Origin: Planctomycetota bacterium
Lineage (GTDB): Bacteria > Planctomycetota > Brocadiia > SM23-32
Direction of reading: 5' to 3'
NCBI GenBank assembly: GCA_018400625.1
Contig: JAGYMJ010000576.1
Span: 1 to 11,261, forward strand
Length of the DNA: 11,261 bases
Both the position numbers and the translations under genes were made by a program. Within the stretch, counting starts at the first letter, position 1. Each line of letters begins with the position of its first letter. Shown piece by piece: positions 3,248 to 10,116 of the stretch. The notes beneath the pieces were generated by a model. The model had not been told where the DNA came from. It made no database searches and worked only from the letters and a program-made list of their open reading frames with translations.

Positions 3248-4297
3248 TTATTCATTTTCCGGACGCAGCTTCCGCACCTGGGCGCCCGCACGCCACATTT
3301 CAGAATTCTTGATTTCATCCAGTTCTTCTCTCAGCTTTTCTGCATAATCCGGCCGGCTGTTGACTTCGATAACTCGTTGAGTTTCACTGCCGTCCGCCAC
3401 TTTCTGGTAGAGATCTTCAAAAACGGGGCTTACGGCATCCCTGAATTTATCTTTCCAATCCAGAGCTCCCCTCTGGGCCGTAGCGCTGCAATTAGCAAAC
3501 ATCCAGTCCATTCCGTTCTCGGCGACCAATTTAATAAGGCTTTGCGTCAATTCTTCGACAGTTTCATTGAATGCTTCACTGGGAGAATGGCCGTTTTCCC
3601 TTAAAACCGCGTACTGGGCCTCCATAACGCCGGCCAGAGCTCCCATAAGCACTCCCCGCTCCCCGGTAAGATCGCTCAAAGTTTCGCCTTTGAAAGTTGT
3701 TTCAAAAAGATAACCCGAACCTATGGCTATGCCCAAAGCAATGCATCTCTCACGCGCGTTCCCGGTGGCGTCCTGTTCAACGGCGAAGCTTGAATTTATT
3801 CCGCTTCCCTCAAGAAAATTACGCCTGACCGAAGTGCCGCTCCCTTTGGGGGCAACCAGCAGAACATCAACATCTTCCGGCGGTATTACTCCCGTCTGAT
3901 CCTGGTAAACAATGGAAAAACCATGGGAAAAATAAAGGGCGTCGCCGGGGTTGAGATTCCGCTTAATGGTATCCCAAAGCATCATCTGAGCCGCATCAGA
4001 GACCAGATACTGTATAACGGTCCCTTTGCTTACGGCTTCCTCAACGGGGAACAAGCTGACTCCGGGTTCCCAGCCGTCTTTCTGCGCTTTTTCCCAATAG
4101 TTGCCATGCTCCGGCGCCTGCCCTATGATAACATTGATACCGTTATCGCGCATGTTGAGTGCTTGAGCCGGGCCCTGGACGCCGTATCCAATGATAGCGA
4201 CCGTTTCATCTTTCAAAACTTCACGAGCTTTCTCCAGAGGAAATTCATCCCTTATAATAACTGTTTCCTTAACTCCACCAAAATCAAGCTTTGCCAT
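3248..4297 (-). CDS. ilvC: ketol-acid reductoisomerase (NADP+), IlvC
   Basis: A 349-residue ketol-acid reductoisomerase. It uses NAD(P)H and Mg2+ to turn 2-acetolactate or 2-aceto-2-hydroxybutyrate into the 2,3-dihydroxy acids of the valine, leucine and isoleucine pathways. Seen: the Rossmann loop GYGVQGPAQALN (37-48), SHGF (124-127), APKGSGTSVR (149-158), the metal-binding DLTGE (Asp209, Glu213), and the C-terminal knotted domain with VEELTQ and NCSATAQRGALDW. The spellings GYGVQGPAQ, KGSGTSVRRNF and TGERG are those of the Bacteroidetes/yeast-like subgroup, not the GYGSQGHAHA of most bacterial class I enzymes. The start is the ATG at 4297, 7 nt after GGAG; a TTG two codons upstream (4303) is almost on top of that ribosome site and is less likely. 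ilvB, ilvN, ilvD and leu genes are absent nearby. A near-consensus promoter and an 83-bp palindromic element lie upstream. Confidence 0.96.
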   Translation of the reverse strand: MAKLDFGGVKETVIIRDEFPLEKAREVLKDETVAIIGYGVQGPAQALNMRDNGINVIIGQAPEHGNYWEKAQKDGWEPGVSLFPVEEAVSKGTVIQYLVSDAAQMMLWDTIKRNLNPGDALYFSHGFSIVYQDQTGVIPPEDVDVLLVAPKGSGTSVRRNFLEGSGINSSFAVEQDATGNARERCIALGIAIGSGYLFETTFKGETLSDLTGERGVLMGALAGVMEAQYAVLRENGHSPSEAFNETVEELTQSLIKLVAENGMDWMFANCSATAQRGALDWKDKFRDAVSPVFEDLYQKVADGSETQRVIEVNSRPDYAEKLREELDEIKNSEMWRAGAQVRKLRPENE

Positions 4298-4356
4298 GTT
4301 CAATCTCCAAAATTTAATGTGAAATGAGTAAAATAGACTTTATAAACAATGTTTTC

Positions 4357-4439
4357 GTAAGTATTCAGTGCAGTGCGCAGCTTTCTCCCCACCGTGCACT
4401 GTGCCGGTGGGGAAACAACGTGATTCACTGAGGACTTAC
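4357..4439. mobile_element. 83-bp palindromic MITE-like element, copy A, with 8-bp target duplication
   Basis: The element begins GTAAGTATTCAGTG and its other end, read inward on the opposite strand, is GTAAGTCCTCAGTG: terminal inverted repeats of 14 bp with 12 matches. The centre holds a perfect 8-bp stem, CCCCACCG and CGGTGGGG, around a 10-nt loop. The flanks are identical: ATGTTTTC at 4349-4356 and at 4440-4447, which is a perfect 8-bp direct repeat outside the element. It has no coding capacity. Read on the minus strand it matches the copy at 8822-8904 at 72 of 83 positions without gaps. An insertion with target duplication is the simplest explanation. GTAA ends with 8-bp duplications are what I recall for the IS66 family, so a relative of that family may supply the transposase (inference). 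Confidence 0.85.
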
Positions 4440-4454
4440 ATGTTTTCGAGCCCC

Positions 4455-4483
4455 ATTATAACAATATAATACATCTTTGTCGA
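4455..4483 (-). promoter_or_regulatory. sigma-70 type promoter of ilvC
   Basis: On the minus strand: -35 TCGACA (4478-4483, five of six consensus bases), a 17-nt spacer and a perfect -10 TATAAT (4455-4460). The predicted start near 4448 gives a leader of about 150 nt before the ilvC ATG at 4297. That leader contains all of palindromic copy A. Confidence 0.75.
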
Positions 4484-4510
4484 AAGACAATGATGAAAGA
4501 CGGCAAAAAG

Positions 4511-4594
4511 GTATTAAATTCAGTGAAGTCCCTGGTTTTATGACCACCGGCAAAGGTCACGGCAGGGCAACAACGCGGTTCACTGAATACTTAA
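4511..4594. mobile_element. 84-bp palindromic MITE-like element, copy C, degenerate
   Basis: A second member of the same family, 63 bp from copy A. It runs from GTATTAAATTCAGTGAA to a right end that reads TTAAGTATTCAGTGAACC on the minus strand. Read on that strand it keeps the landmarks of the other copies: TCAGTGAACC near one end, GGTGGT in the middle and ACTTCACTG near the far end. The outer inverted repeats are eroded. The flanks are GCAAAAAG (4503-4510) and GCAAAAAA (4595-4602), a 7/8 match that looks like an aged 8-bp target duplication, though an A-rich match is less specific. The right flank abuts the recJ stop codon, so the element falls immediately after recJ in the transcript. Confidence 0.65.
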
Positions 4595-4602
4595 GCAAAA
4601 AA

Positions 4603-6375
4603 CTATCCATTATCAACATATTCAATCAGGTCACCGCCATCCCATTGAATATCTTCAGCCCGCAGTTCCACTTCATATTTGCGGTTGAATGTGTTGATGC
4701 GCGGTTCAAAAGCAAGCGAAAAAGACTGCCCCTGGCGAGCCTTAAGAGATTTTAACCACTCGGCCTTTCCAAAGGCGATCACACGCAAAGATATCCCATT
4801 CTGTTTGGCGAAAAAGGCAAGGTGGTTACGTCGCGAGCCTATCGTCTGGGGATTACCTGCGATCTTCAGCCCCCTTGCCGCGAAGAGGGGCTGTGGATTA
4901 CCTTCGCCGTAAGGTTCTAAGTAACTCAATTCTTCGACAGCAGGTTCGGATAAATTCCTCAGTTCGAGTTCACCTTCGAGCTGAAGCTGCGGCATGGGCG
5001 GTTCAGGGCCGAGCATAGAACTTGTTATATCAGAGATGTCTTGCTTAAATGGTTCCAGATTTTTCAGGGGGAGCGACATCCCTGCAGCTCCTTTATGCCC
5101 CCCAAACCGATCAAGGAGATCGCCGCACTTACTTATCGCCTTAAAAAGGTGGAGGCCGGGTATGCTGCGGGCGCTTCCACACGCTATACCGTCTTTTTCG
5201 TAAAAAACGAAGGCAGGTCGGGAAAAATGCTCTGCAAGTTTTGAGGCCACCAGACCAACCACACCCGGATGCCATTCGGGATGCGAGAGCACTATACAAT
5301 TGCATTTTGCCAGATCATGCGTGGATTCGGCCAATTCCATGGCTTCAGCACTTATAGCCCGCTGCGTAATCTGCCTTTTACGGTTATGAGCTTCCAGCTC
5401 ACCCGCAATCTCGCGCGCCTTATTAAAATCATCGGTAGTCAGCATATCGATTGCTGCACAAGCGTCCGCCATACGCCCTACAGCGTTGAGGCGGGGGGCT
5501 ATTTGATATCCTATGTTATAAGTGGAATAACGGGATTTGCCGGCGATCCCACAAACTTGCAGCAAGGCCCTTATACCCGCCAACTTTGCTGAAGGGAGCA
5601 GCTTGAGCCCATAGTTGACATAAACACGATTTTCGTTTTCCATGGGCACCAGATCGGCGACCGTCCCGATAGCGACCAGCGGCAGCAAGTCAACCAGAGT
5701 TTCTTTAAAATCGGGCGATACGGCCCCACCTGCACCGAAAGCCTGACCAAGCGACCACGCGAGCTTGAAAGCCACACCGACTCCGCTGAGGTTTTCATAC
5801 CCGAACTCACATTCGCGGAGGTGGGGGTTGAGGATGAAATCTGCCGTTGGACGTTCACCACGCTGTTGGTGGTGGTCGGTAATAATTATATCAAGCCCCA
5901 ATTCCTTGGCATATTGAATTTCTTTTATTGCGCTGATGCCGCAATCCACGGTTAAAATCACATCCGTACCATTATTTTTCAGTTCTTCGACGGCGGAGAA
6001 ATTGAGCCCATATCCTTCATCAAACCGGTGGGGGACATAAAAGTCCACAGACGCATCGCCGGCCCGTAGAGCCCGTACCATAAGGGCCGAAGCGCATATT
6101 CCGTCGGCATCAAAATCGCCGTAAACCGTGATTTTCTTACCTTCTTTAATCCTTTCTTTTAGAAAAAAAGCGGCCTTCTTCACTTGATCATCTCTGCTGG
6201 GATCGGAAAGCTGGTGAAGGGTAGGTTCAAGAAATTCGCGAGCCTTTTCCCGGTTTTCTATCCCGCGGTTCAACAACATTTGCGCGGTAATAGGAGAAAT
6301 ACGCAGTTCGGCGGCTAATTTGTCAATTTTCCCCGAAGAATTGCGGGGGATAATCCATTTTTTGCTCGCTTGCAT
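4603..6375 (-). CDS. recJ: single-stranded-DNA-specific exonuclease RecJ
   Basis: A 590-residue 5'-3' exonuclease for single-stranded DNA, acting in recombinational repair (RecF pathway) and mismatch repair. It belongs to the DHH superfamily. Seen: motif I YGDFDADG (85-92), motif II TVDCGIS (142-148), the signature TDHH (166-169), SGVGVAFK (197-204) and the fourth Asp motif GTVADLVPM (237-245). The DHHA1 part carries EWHPGVVGLVASKL (367-380), GSARS (400-404) and FGGHKGAAGMSL (424-435), and an OB-fold-like C-terminus follows. The length is normal for RecJ. A GAGGTG ribosome site precedes the ATG. The gene is divergent from the hsp20 operon, separated by 300 bp. A palindromic element begins 8 nt past the stop codon (TAG). 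Confidence 0.96.
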   Translation of the reverse strand: MQASKKWIIPRNSSGKIDKLAAELRISPITAQMLLNRGIENREKAREFLEPTLHQLSDPSRDDQVKKAAFFLKERIKEGKKITVYGDFDADGICASALMVRALRAGDASVDFYVPHRFDEGYGLNFSAVEELKNNGTDVILTVDCGISAIKEIQYAKELGLDIIITDHHQQRGERPTADFILNPHLRECEFGYENLSGVGVAFKLAWSLGQAFGAGGAVSPDFKETLVDLLPLVAIGTVADLVPMENENRVYVNYGLKLLPSAKLAGIRALLQVCGIAGKSRYSTYNIGYQIAPRLNAVGRMADACAAIDMLTTDDFNKAREIAGELEAHNRKRQITQRAISAEAMELAESTHDLAKCNCIVLSHPEWHPGVVGLVASKLAEHFSRPAFVFYEKDGIACGSARSIPGLHLFKAISKCGDLLDRFGGHKGAAGMSLPLKNLEPFKQDISDITSSMLGPEPPMPQLQLEGELELRNLSEPAVEELSYLEPYGEGNPQPLFAARGLKIAGNPQTIGSRRNHLAFFAKQNGISLRVIAFGKAEWLKSLKARQGQSFSLAFEPRINTFNRKYEVELRAEDIQWDGGDLIEYVDNG

Positions 6376-6675: not shown

Positions 6676-7113
6676 ATGGTTATATGGGACAGAGATTTTG
6701 GATTGGGAAGTGATCCGTTCAGTGATCTTGCTCGTTTCCGCAACACAATGAACCGTCTGTTCAGTTCGGCGATGCCTTTGGGAGCTCAGGGCCTGTTCCC
6801 ACCGGTCAACGTATGGTCAAACAACGAGAAAGCGGTCGTTACGGCCGAAGTTCCAGGAGTGAATAAGGAGGATATGGACATTTCGGTTGAAAACGATGCT
6901 CTGACGGTCAAGGGGCATAGAGAACACGTGGAAATTGGCGATGATGAGTCATTCCGAAAAAGGGAAAGAGGTTACGGCTCGTTCAGAAGGGTTATAGGCT
7001 TGCCCTATGCCGTTGACCCCGAGAATGTTAATGCAGAATACAAAGACGGGATTCTGCGTGTGGAACTTCACCGTCACGAAGCGAGCAAACCCAGGAAAAT
7101 CGACATCAGTTAA
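6676..7113 (+). CDS. Hsp20-family small heat-shock protein 1
   Basis: A 145-residue ATP-independent holdase chaperone of the alpha-crystallin/Hsp20 family; such proteins form cytoplasmic oligomers and bind unfolding proteins for later refolding by DnaK/ClpB. A short N-terminal arm (residues 1-40, with DPFSDLARFRNTMNRLF, typical of the family) precedes an alpha-crystallin domain from about 43 to 137. Landmarks are AEVPGVNKEDMDISVENDALTV (residues 58-79), RERGYGSFRR, and YKDGILRVEL. The tail KPRKIDIS carries the I-x-I anchor that docks in a neighbouring subunit. The usual LPK after the last strand is HRH here. An excellent GGAGGTGA ribosome site lies before the ATG. It is the first of three hsp20 genes on one strand and begins downstream of a candidate sigma-54 promoter. 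Confidence 0.93.
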   Translation: MVIWDRDFGLGSDPFSDLARFRNTMNRLFSSAMPLGAQGLFPPVNVWSNNEKAVVTAEVPGVNKEDMDISVENDALTVKGHREHVEIGDDESFRKRERGYGSFRRVIGLPYAVDPENVNAEYKDGILRVELHRHEASKPRKIDIS

Positions 7114-7167
7114 AGGGGATTTTTATAACATACTGAAATCTTAAAAAAATTCTTAGGAGGCACGAAC

Positions 7168-7569
7168 ATGAACGAAGAACAAAAAATAGCAAAAACCGAT
7201 GAACAATCGAAGGCACTTCAAACAGAAGCCATAGGGACGGAGGACGCTGTTTATTCACCGCAAGTGGATATAATAGAAAAGAAGGAGTCGGTTGAAGTAC
7301 TTGCCGATATGCCCGGCGTTCCTAAAGAAAATGTGGACCTCGTCATGGAGGAAGGCGTTCTTACAATCGACGGTAAGGTGGCGCCGACCAGGGAAGATGA
7401 CCTTTCATTGGAAGCCGGCGAATACGGCTACGGCAATTACCATAGGTCATTTGCCGTCGGCGACGGACTGGATACCGAAGGCATTGAGGCCTGTATGCAG
7501 GACGGCGTATTGAAGCTGACTCTACCAAAAACAGAAAAATACAAACCAAAACGTATTGAAATACAATAA
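7168..7569 (+). CDS. Hsp20-family small heat-shock protein 2
   Basis: A 133-residue alpha-crystallin-domain chaperone. It differs from its neighbours in its N-terminus: instead of the W/F-rich arm there is a polar, Glu/Lys/Gln-rich stretch (about residues 1-30, MNEEQKIAKTDEQSKAL..). Such tails are thought to alter oligomer size or client binding. The domain shows LADMPGVPKENVDLVMEEGVLTI, EYGYGNYHRSF, DGVLKLTLPKTEKYKP and the C-terminal I-E-I of KPKRIEIQ. It starts 54 nt after the first hsp20 gene with a strong AGGAGG site. That spacing, and the lack of a terminator between them, suggest one operon. A hetero-oligomer with the neighbouring sHSPs is plausible but unproven. Confidence 0.92.
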   Translation: MNEEQKIAKTDEQSKALQTEAIGTEDAVYSPQVDIIEKKESVEVLADMPGVPKENVDLVMEEGVLTIDGKVAPTREDDLSLEAGEYGYGNYHRSFAVGDGLDTEGIEACMQDGVLKLTLPKTEKYKPKRIEIQ

Positions 7570-7626
7570 GAGTGTTTGCCCAAGAACATTTTTATTATGC
7601 AAGATAAATCACAGGAGGTGGTGAGA

Positions 7627-8118
7627 ATGACTATGAGAGACTTAATACCATGGAAAAAGAGGCATCGAAGGCCCGAAAGTGTTGATCTCATGCAGAGAAA
7701 TGAGATACAGGATTTTTTCCGCGATGCCATGGAGGATTTCTTCAGTACCGGCTGGGGCATTGCCCCCTGGCTGAGGAAAGAATGGGATATGGGACCGGCT
7801 ATCGATATATCAGAGAACGATAAAGAATACAGAGTCGAAGTGGAATTGCCTGGATTGAAAAAGGATGACCTCGACGTCACTATCGACAACGGTCGTCTGC
7901 AAATATCCGGCGAGAGGCAGACGGAGGATAAGGAAGAAAAAGAGAACTACCTGCGTGTCGAACGTTCGACCGGGGCATTCTCCAGGACCATTCCGCTACC
8001 GGCAACAGTCAATGAGGACGAAGCTGAAGCCGGCTACAAAGACGGCGTTTTAACCGTCAGACTCCCTAAAACTCCGGAAGCTCGCGGCAAAAAAATTGAT
8101 ATAAGCACTTCCGAGTAA
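7627..8118 (+). CDS. Hsp20-family small heat-shock protein 3
   Basis: A 163-residue alpha-crystallin-domain chaperone with the N-terminal MRDLIPWKKR and an FRDAMEDFF arm seen in many bacterial Hsp20 proteins. The domain runs from about residue 56, with VELPGLKKDDLDVTIDNGRLQISGER, RSTGAFSRTIPLP and YKDGVLTVRLPKTPEA; the tail is KKIDIS. The start at ATG 7627 is chosen because AGGAGG (7613-7618) is 8 nt before it. An in-frame TTG at 7576 would add 17 residues but has no ribosome site, and the GTG at 7621 abuts the Shine-Dalgarno. This is the last gene of the three-gene operon, and a strong terminator follows. Confidence 0.92.
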   Translation: MTMRDLIPWKKRHRRPESVDLMQRNEIQDFFRDAMEDFFSTGWGIAPWLRKEWDMGPAIDISENDKEYRVEVELPGLKKDDLDVTIDNGRLQISGERQTEDKEEKENYLRVERSTGAFSRTIPLPATVNEDEAEAGYKDGVLTVRLPKTPEARGKKIDISTSE

Positions 8119-8281: not shown

Positions 8282-8773
8282 ATGAAATTAAGAACCTACC
8301 CCGATCCAATATTACGAAGACGCGCCCGGCCGCTTAAACAAATCGGTCAGGACGAGCGAAAAAAACTGCATGAAATGCTGGAAAAAATGTACGAAAATGA
8401 GGGAATAGGCCTGGCCGGACCTCAAATCGGGTGGAGTGTGCGGGTGATTACAGTCGATCCCGACGGAAAAGGACAGAGGAAAAGGATATTCATAAACCCG
8501 CAAATCCTTGAATCAAGTGGGATAGCAGACGCCGAAGAAGGCTGCCTGAGCCTGCCCGGGATCAGAAGTAATGTCCAGCGATCGGACAAAGTTGTGGTAT
8601 CCGCATATACTATGGAGGGTGAAGCCCTCAAGCTGGAATTAGAAGGACTTATGGCCAGGGTCTGGCAGCATGAGATTGACCACCTCAACGGTATCCTTTT
8701 CGTTGATAAAATTACGACGGCTGAAAAACTTCATGTCCGGGAAAAAATGCGCTCTTTGTCGGATTCGGGTTAA
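8282..8773 (+). CDS. def: peptide deformylase
   Basis: A 163-residue metalloenzyme that removes the formyl group from the N-terminal methionine of new proteins at the ribosome exit. All three signatures are present: motif 1 GIGLAGPQ (41-48; usually GxGLAAPQ), motif 2 EGCLS (86-90) with the metal ligand Cys88, and motif 3 QHEIDHLNG (129-137) with ligands His130 and His134 and catalytic Glu131. The length and C-terminal helix are normal for bacterial PDF. No Shine-Dalgarno is evident before the ATG (context TAAATTGAG), unlike the other genes here. fmt, which often follows def, is absent; the next feature is a palindromic repeat. Confidence 0.95.
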   Translation: MKLRTYPDPILRRRARPLKQIGQDERKKLHEMLEKMYENEGIGLAGPQIGWSVRVITVDPDGKGQRKRIFINPQILESSGIADAEEGCLSLPGIRSNVQRSDKVVVSAYTMEGEALKLELEGLMARVWQHEIDHLNGILFVDKITTAEKLHVREKMRSLSDSG

Positions 8774-8821: not shown

Positions 8822-8904
8822 GTAAGTCCTCAGTGAACCACGTGGTTTCCCCTCCGGCACAGGGCACGGTGGTGAGAAAATTACGCACTTCACTGGATAT
8901 TTAC
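8822..8904. mobile_element. 83-bp palindromic MITE-like element, copy B
   Basis: It begins GTAAGTCCTCAGTGAACC and ends CACTGGATATTTAC, and matches copy A read on its minus strand at 72 of 83 ungapped positions. The central CCCCTCCG..CGGTGGTG pairing is weaker than in copy A. No direct repeat is visible at the flanks (ATTCAGAG left, CCACAATT right), which suggests an older insertion or one altered since. It lies 49 nt after the def stop, in the 314-bp gap before the secreted-protein gene. Confidence 0.75.
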
Positions 8905-9015: not shown

Positions 9016-9034
9016 GTAAGTCTTCAGTGAACCA
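9016..9034 (+). repeat. solo end of the palindromic element (copy D)
   Basis: GTAAGTCTTCAGTGAACCA matches the first 19 bases of copy B with one difference. The rest of the element is missing: 83 bp downstream would fall inside the next gene and shows no matching end. It is a truncated remnant, or an end sequence kept for another reason, in the 5' leader of the next gene. Confidence 0.55.
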
Positions 9035-9087
9035 TATACGTTCGTTCTGTCAAAGAATACAATATCATTTTCTTAGGAGAAATAAGA

Positions 9088-10116
9088 ATGAAAAAAATGC
9101 AGATAAAACTTGTTTTTTTGTTCGTCGGGTTGGTTGCCATCTCTTTCGCATCAACAATACTGAGTTCTTCCGAAAAAGTTCAAGCCGATTCCATCCTCGC
9201 TTCAGTTCCCTCAGATTCAAACTTGCTCATTTCCGTGGACATGCAGCGTGCGTTTGAACTGTCTCTCGTGCAAGAAGCGCTGGATGATGCCGATGCAACA
9301 GATACGAAGGAATTGGAAACATTACTTGAAAAACATGAATTAACGATGGAAGAACTATGCAGGGAATTTGTATTCTTCGGTAAAATCGACCCATCAATGA
9401 GCTCCGGGGGAGTCTGGGGCGCCGTCATGCGAACCGACATTGAAGAAGGTTCTTTCAAAGGAATCCTTGAAGCCGAATCGAATGGAGAGGATGCGGTATT
9501 ATCTTACGAGATAAAAGATTTACAGGGTTATGATGTGTATGTGTTGAATAATGACCATGCCGCCCTGACGCAAGGAACTCGAAAAATGAATATAACTTCC
9601 GCCGCCTTGACTTATATCACTGCCAACCACCTATTGGTCGCCGATGAAAGTGAAATCGAAAGAATGATTACTCAAATAACGGCAGGCAATACTGTGGAAA
9701 GGTCGCCTGCAAGAGGATTGAATGATATTGATCACGAGGCTCTGGTCTGGGCAATTTTTGATCTCAACGGAAATATCATACCCCAGGACCTGCCGCCTGA
9801 GTCAGAACACTTTAAGGATTTAGCGGGCGGAACATTTGTATTAGACTTTGAGGGAGTTGCGGACGGAGATATGGACATGCGCCTTTCTTTGGAAAGCAGG
9901 GAGCAGGAAAGCGCACAAAAAATGCATGCTCAGATCAGGCAGTTCTCGGGTCTTATCCCTATGCTTTTCAGCGGCGACCCCCAACTTGGCAACTCAGTCG
10001 CCGATTCTATTGATATATCCTTATCGGGCAATAAGGTTATCATTGCAGTGTCTCTTCAACAATCATTGATTAAAGACCTGCAAAGATTTGCAGAATCCGC
10101 TCAGCAAGAATTTTAA
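9088..10116 (+). CDS. secreted protein of unknown function
   Basis: A 342-residue protein I do not recognise with certainty. The N-terminus is a clear Sec signal peptide: MKKMQIK, a hydrophobic core (about residues 8-25) and a likely signal peptidase I site after VQA (residue 33). The mature part is acidic and otherwise without membrane segments, so it should be periplasmic or extracellular. It opens with SILASVPSDSNLLISVDM, a pattern seen in secreted proteins of DUF3352-like type (weak resemblance, inference only). There are no cysteines beyond CREF near residue 91 and no obvious catalytic motif. AGGAGA lies 7 nt before the ATG. It has its own promoter. The HDAC-family gene starts 4 nt after its stop, so the two are probably co-transcribed. 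Confidence 0.8.
   Translation: MKKMQIKLVFLFVGLVAISFASTILSSSEKVQADSILASVPSDSNLLISVDMQRAFELSLVQEALDDADATDTKELETLLEKHELTMEELCREFVFFGKIDPSMSSGGVWGAVMRTDIEEGSFKGILEAESNGEDAVLSYEIKDLQGYDVYVLNNDHAALTQGTRKMNITSAALTYITANHLLVADESEIERMITQITAGNTVERSPARGLNDIDHEALVWAIFDLNGNIIPQDLPPESEHFKDLAGGTFVLDFEGVADGDMDMRLSLESREQESAQKMHAQIRQFSGLIPMLFSGDPQLGNSVADSIDISLSGNKVIIAVSLQQSLIKDLQRFAESAQQEF

Follow-up and report, generated by a model that had tools for sequence, protein, structure and literature searches.

A lineage-restricted family of short palindromic MITEs in Planctomycetota, probably of IS66 type

Correia-type and other bacterial MITEs are short, palindromic and intergenic and occur in many copies. The family described here is like them in these respects but has other ends, and Correia elements have a TA target. 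Two further systems are closer. According to PMC11946415, the ends of IS66 insertion sequences are 20–30 bp long and start with GTAAGCG, and the target is duplicated over 8 bp. The present family shares the GTAA start and the 8-bp duplication, and remnants of a transposase are found inside ends of this kind in a genome of the same genus (G001). In contrast to an IS66 insertion sequence, the MITE has no transposase gene, and the bases following GTAA are mostly GT or AT (GTAAGT or GTAAAT), not GCG. The second system is MITECca01 of Cardinium, which, as described in PMC9769881, derives from an element of the IS982 family, is 240 bp long and is present in 169 copies together with intact parents. 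Both families are high-copy and mostly intergenic, and in Cardinium an eroded parent copy has retained a 3′-terminal piece of its transposase gene, comparable to the remnants in G001. The elements described here differ from MITECca01 in that they are mostly about 83 bp long with variable interiors, and no intact parent was seen. In the literature searched, where subscription journals were thinly covered, we recognized no description of this family or of an IS66-derived MITE, and the listings contained no worked example of MITE birth from IS66-type elements. The first-pass annotation had proposed a new MITE family, and on the basis of these searches we regard it as a new family within a known class of mobile elements.

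The window, that is, the whole stretch of 11,261 nucleotides analyzed, is contig 576 of the home MAG, which is 83% complete and comprises 698 contigs with a total of 3.19 Mb. It contains three full-length copies of nearly equal size, as had been noted before: A (83 bp), B (84 bp), and C (83 bp). Copy A, supported by sequence, alignment, and predicted folds, occupies positions 4357–4439 on the + strand. Its left end is GTAAGTATTCAGTG and its right end, read as the reverse complement, is GTAAGTCCTCAGTGAA; these inverted ends agree at 12/14 and 15/21 positions. A central hairpin with the stems CCCCACCG and CGGTGGGG lies at 4387–4412. The element is bordered on both sides by ATGTTTTC (4349–4356 and 4440–4447, 8/8 identical), and the interval 4349–4447 comprises the element and both flanking repeats. 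From the base composition, the chance of an 8/8 agreement at two fixed places is 1.6e-5. The RNA fold predicted for A with its flanks (99 nt) has an energy of −40.2 kcal/mol (z = −5.07, with 0 of 200 shuffles as good), and the DNA fold of the 83-mer has a z of −4.29 (1 of 200 shuffles as good). None of the listed ORFs of ≥80 aa overlaps A. The palindromic 83-bp architecture, the identical flanks, and the lack of an internal ORF were all as originally annotated. The genes around A and B encode ketol-acid reductoisomerase (KARI; 3248–4303, − strand) and RecJ (4603–6375, − strand). An empty site for A was not obtained, as there was no alignable relative: among the five recJ loci compared, only recJ aligned, the products of the congeners being 66–70% identical in protein, and KARI was not found in any of the five.

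Copy B (4511–4594, + strand; sequence and alignment) is more diverged and has one extra base near its left end. Its flanks, GCAAAAAG (4503–4510) and GCAAAAAA (4595–4602), are alike at 7/8 positions, which points to a probable decayed target duplication and is a sign absent from the first-pass annotation. A mechanical ORF of 92 aa (4477–4755, + strand) overlaps this copy. Copy C (8822–8904, − strand), found by alignment, is 87% complementary to A, and its flanks are unlike (2/8). A lone terminus, GTAAGTCTTCAGTGAACCATA (9016–9036, + strand), for which no partner was found nearby, is probably a fragment of a further copy. Copy C and the lone end are located between the gene for peptide deformylase (8282–8773, + strand) and an ORF at 9088–10116 (+ strand). 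This ORF encodes 342 aa, has no Pfam match at E 0.001, and starts 72 bp past the first base of the lone end (9016). Elsewhere in the window, three Hsp20 genes stand in a row (6676–8118). The ten window proteins scanned against Pfam gave no match to a transposase family, in accordance with the earlier statement that the window holds no transposase.

In the home MAG, the 83-bp query gave 52 matching rows, 10 of which were, by eye, the opposite strand of a site that another row had covered; they correspond to at least about 42 places, a lower bound with 40 of the 477 candidates scored. The 16-bp sequence GTAAGTCCTCAGTGAA, with three or fewer mismatches, located 590 termini in the home MAG compared with 20 for the reversed control, and 183 and 109 in two genomes of the same genus (G001 and G002) compared with 12 in each control. 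Six genomes of other genera of the host family (G003–G008) were near background, with 19, 5, 10, 6, 11, and 5 termini against controls of 12, 3, 4, 5, 8, and 3. A stricter 18-mer pattern occurred 216 times in G001 and 0 times in the control. The 83-bp query matched 3 of 58 genomes, namely the home MAG and the two congeners, and the element first noticed in the window is abundant in its own genome and present in two others.

We also scanned a species-level genome collection, which may leave out the home genome or very near records, with an exact 21-mer. This gave 28 stretches in MAGs bearing Sed10 names, 24 of them in two MAGs titled Candidatus Brocadiaceae (17 in PWZK and 7 in PUMZ). The remaining four are on short contigs of CSSed10 bins titled Mollicutes, Bacteroidales, Hydrogenedentota, and Diapherotrites (L119, L129, L131, and L133), and are possibly misbinned pieces of a host of the same genus, or the result of transfer. 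The Sed10-named MAGs appear to originate from the Kulunda Steppe soda-lake study (PMC6146748); the strings "sed10," "transpos," and "mite" each have 0 occurrences in its main text as far as that text was available. Viral contigs contained 0 stretches for the 18-mer and 6 for the 16-mer. The family ends mark one uncultured soda-lake lineage and flag contigs that may be misbinned. Among 100 termini listed of the 590 in the home MAG, 28 (by eye) begin no more than 60 bp from where the contig begins and point off it, and such repeats may help explain the fragmentation of this MAG.

Each copy consists of two terminal inverted repeats of roughly 16–21 bp around a short interior, which is often a hairpin. 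The ends are of a right type, GTAAGTCCTCAGTGAACCACG, and a left type, GTAAATATTCAGTGAA. Pairing of facing ends 75–95 bp apart in home MAG loci gave 46 pairs, 31 of which (including C, not including B) were kept at ≤3 mismatches per end to a stricter consensus, and 15 were dropped. The length was 83 bp in 23 of these 31 clean copies. Their flanks were identical at 8/8 positions in 8 copies, 7/8 in 6, 6/8 in 2, and ≤5/8 in 15. Consequently, 14 of 31 reached at least 7/8, a level attained by 0.15% of 5963 mis-paired flanks, and 17, including C, had no duplication at this level. The 8-bp duplication seen at copy A recurs at other copies of the home MAG. In a looser set of 53 pairs, taken from the retrieved loci and including a few chance pairs, an exact 8-bp repeat was present in 10 and a 9-bp repeat in none. 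Longer elements of 96, 155 (two), 163, 259, 272, 295, and 738 bp also have 8/8 flanks; they are 8 of 15 rows at ≥7/8, and the 633- and 880-bp rows seem to be chance pairs.

Where one element has inserted into another, the host element offers a natural empty site. Among 34 joined flanks, those of one copy (L072) aligned over the junction with uninterrupted copies, at 66–72%; this copy, with the repeat GAAGATTT, is inserted in a terminal part of a second MITE. In L114, the element that bears a remnant breaks up a 155-bp relative following 51 identical bases, and L111 holds this relative in unbroken form; the insertion was observed from one side because the other is off the contig. Based on the copy number, the flank duplications, the nested insertions, and the near-background counts in the other genera searched, the elements, which stand in many different sequence surroundings, are a real, lineage-restricted, and mostly intergenic family, and the MITE reading of the first-pass annotation is supported.

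The strong predicted hairpin would also be expected of a structured RNA, a transcription terminator, or a REP-like palindrome kept for a host function, and the genomic context is compatible with this at first sight. Under a simple ORF rule, none of 33 copies is inside an ORF of ≥100 aa, four are inside ORFs of 82–89 aa, and five are partially overlapped by an ORF of 112–523 aa; between ORFs, 21 are in tandem, four in divergent, and one in convergent arrangement, and three are one-sided. The single convergent case among 33 argues against such a function, and no terminator-like site was found in the stretch scanned (4200–4720). The Rfam matches in the window are two tRNAs only. In an alignment of 19 copies, each 83 bp long, 86.4% of the cells in paired columns form pairs, compared with 38–48% when slid, and the end helix is paired in 91.4% of cells. 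The covariation, however, was 0.076 against a shuffle mean of 0.073, and 158 of 500 shuffles were as high. Because the paired columns do not covary beyond shuffles, the palindrome looks to persist through inheritance and because the ends require it, rather than as an RNA. A host function moreover leaves the 8-bp duplications unexplained, and we regard it as a highly improbable reason for the retention of the palindrome, consistent with the initial view that this is no ordinary terminator or REP sequence. Some later use of the element by the host could be accommodated.

The family is best explained as non-autonomous MITEs that were probably moved by IS66-family transposases. Here, we propose that the ends would be bound by an IS66-family DDE transposase whose gene lies elsewhere, and that this enzyme would join the copies to targets cut with an 8-bp stagger. 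The earliest copies may have arisen by internal deletion of an IS66-type element; decayed elements in which a portion of the transposase gene adjoins the same kind of terminus survive in G001. No host function would be needed to explain the copies.

A profile search with PF03050 gave no match in the home MAG and in G002, and two matches above the cut-off and two weak ones in G001. In five loci of G001 (L203, L206, L106, L114, and L176), a decayed C-terminus of an IS66-type transposase points at a family terminus at a distance of 2 to about 550 bp, and one of these loci is beside a weak PF03050 match. L176 and L114 align over 660 columns with 78.6% likeness. The alignment starts at a transposase C-terminus and stops one base beyond the family terminus (positions 751 and 648), and the two elements have different flanks; both loci were first fetched by their termini, and the nearness to the terminus is therefore not independent. 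The transposase part of L176 (first 304 bases) is matched by eight loci, three of which (L108/L197, L208, and L190 of G002) have no convincing terminus within the stretch fetched. The remnant pieces gave a PF13817 match under the cut-off (E 1.5e-4) and a PF03050 match at E 5e-5 and 23.2 bits (cut-off 23.1), and two of the four pieces scanned had no transposase family match. The L176 piece matches seven plasmid records at 35–38%, six of them annotated as IS66 family transposase; the one protein match of a 56-aa remnant piece, from an MSBL1 archaeon, is uninformative. In the home MAG, 38–73 bp of the remnant subterminal DNA is kept up to the terminus in C659, C308, and C592. The end of L114 agrees with the left end of copy C at 19/21 positions, with the right end of A at 18/21, and with the left end of A at 14/21. 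The 8-bp duplication, as in IS66, was seen in the clean home copies, the looser set, and the longer elements. An IS66 element on contig 351 of G001 (L098), whose 523-aa protein has four IS66 domain matches, has the end GTAAGCGCTTAGTAAAGTAC, which agrees with GTAAGTCCTCAGTGAACCAC at 14/20 positions (by eye); it differs from the MITEs in its full transposase gene, and the comparison covers one end.

The first-pass annotation had linked the family to IS66 from its GTAA termini and duplications, and these marks, together with the remnants at five G001 termini, agree with IS66; of the GTAAGCG start, the family shares GTAA and mostly continues with GT or AT. No intact autonomous parent with matching ends was found, decayed IS66-type remnants being all that was seen beside family ends; the MITEs have no intact DDE transposase or accessory genes, and beside the ends in G001 there are only transposase fragments. 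These observations, the lack of a GTAAGCG start, the great differences between interiors, and the three of eight remnant loci with no terminus nearby would all be expected if the family had a non-IS66 parent with GTAA ends and 8-bp duplications and the IS66 remnants were cargo or neighbors. The unlike interiors in particular suggest that foreign DNA may be taken up between the ends, in which case the remnants could be cargo. Such a parent is nevertheless unlikely, as the five remnant loci share their orientation to the terminus, the homology of two of them stops at it, and remnant subterminal DNA lies beside termini of the home MAG as well. The remnants pointing at termini, the likeness of the L114 end, and the end and duplication marks of IS66 make the elements probable IS66-type MITEs. 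Judged from the sequences, an IS66 origin is supported, not proven, and since an intact transposase was not found, the family is classed as a probable IS66-type derivative and not as a member of IS66. The gradation, in a single genus, between transposase remnants and the 83-bp element could reveal how MITEs are born from IS66-type elements.

A DruA-Tn5 (IS4-type) element was considered as another parent and rejected. L133 encodes a DruA-Tn5 protein of 760 aa and has a terminus of the present family that ends at position 3473, and L138/L139 of G001 encode a 766-aa homologue; these proteins have DruA, Tnp_DNA_bind, and Tn5-dimerisation domains and are located between MITE-like hairpins. The insertion sequence, a DruA (DUF4338)-Tn5 fusion in the loop of a hairpin repeat (L133 1040–3419; L139 71–2447, G001:C133), has its own inner ends, CTGACAAG...CTTGTCAG. 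The L139 copy is flanked by GCCCTGTGC and GCCCTGCGC, a 9-bp repeat at 8/9, and joining its flanks gives a sequence with an uninterrupted counterpart among the repeats of L135 (88% over 104 nt). Two relatives in G015, identical to each other (100% over 2387 bp), have the ends CTAATC...CCCCAG and 8-bp repeats (by eye). Because the own ends and the 9-bp repeat show a nested insertion in the hairpin loop, it is extremely improbable that these elements, although adjoined by family ends or hairpins, are the parent. The loop flanks of L133 are unlike each other, and this locus is read as a recombinant. Among 8000 candidates scored, 1432 were relatives of the DruA-Tn5 protein, some named IS4 family transposase, and relatives were present in 9 of 392 genomes of the phylum (E ≤ 1e-100). 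One of the two G015 relatives is situated in CCCCTTCCAAGGGG (by eye). DruA-Tn5 elements may favor palindromes. L103 of G001 was also rejected as a parent, its "end" at position 128 being better read as a decayed MITE of ~66 bp (128 to ~196, by eye). In the same locus (428–2766; G001:C274), a separate DruA gene overlaps an IS66-like transposase gene, and DruA is thus found with two kinds of DDE transposase.

The interiors of the family are variable in size and direction. Among the elements with 8-bp duplications, lengths range from 83 to 738 bp and several hairpin types occur. By pattern match (≤3 mismatches), the core of the 31 clean home copies has one orientation in 15 and the other in 8, and is other, deleted, or unclassified in 8; perfect 8-bp duplications occur in 6/15 and 2/8 copies of the two orientations, respectively. 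It is conceivable, though rather doubtful, that the 21-bp ends are a general mobilizing cassette for unlike interiors, with the hairpin core turned round between fixed arms. If true, copying might pass through a hairpin or template-switch state in which cores would flip and be exchanged. Hairpin cores such as CCACCGGCCCTGCGCCGGTGG are also found in other repeats without obvious GTAA ends (L135 1640–1730; L109 3304–3382). In L084 (G002:C191), longer elements at 9106–9400 and 4285–5022 have perfect 8-bp flanks and a second, longer palindrome around CCGCCCTGCTCGGCCCTTCCGGCGCTTG.
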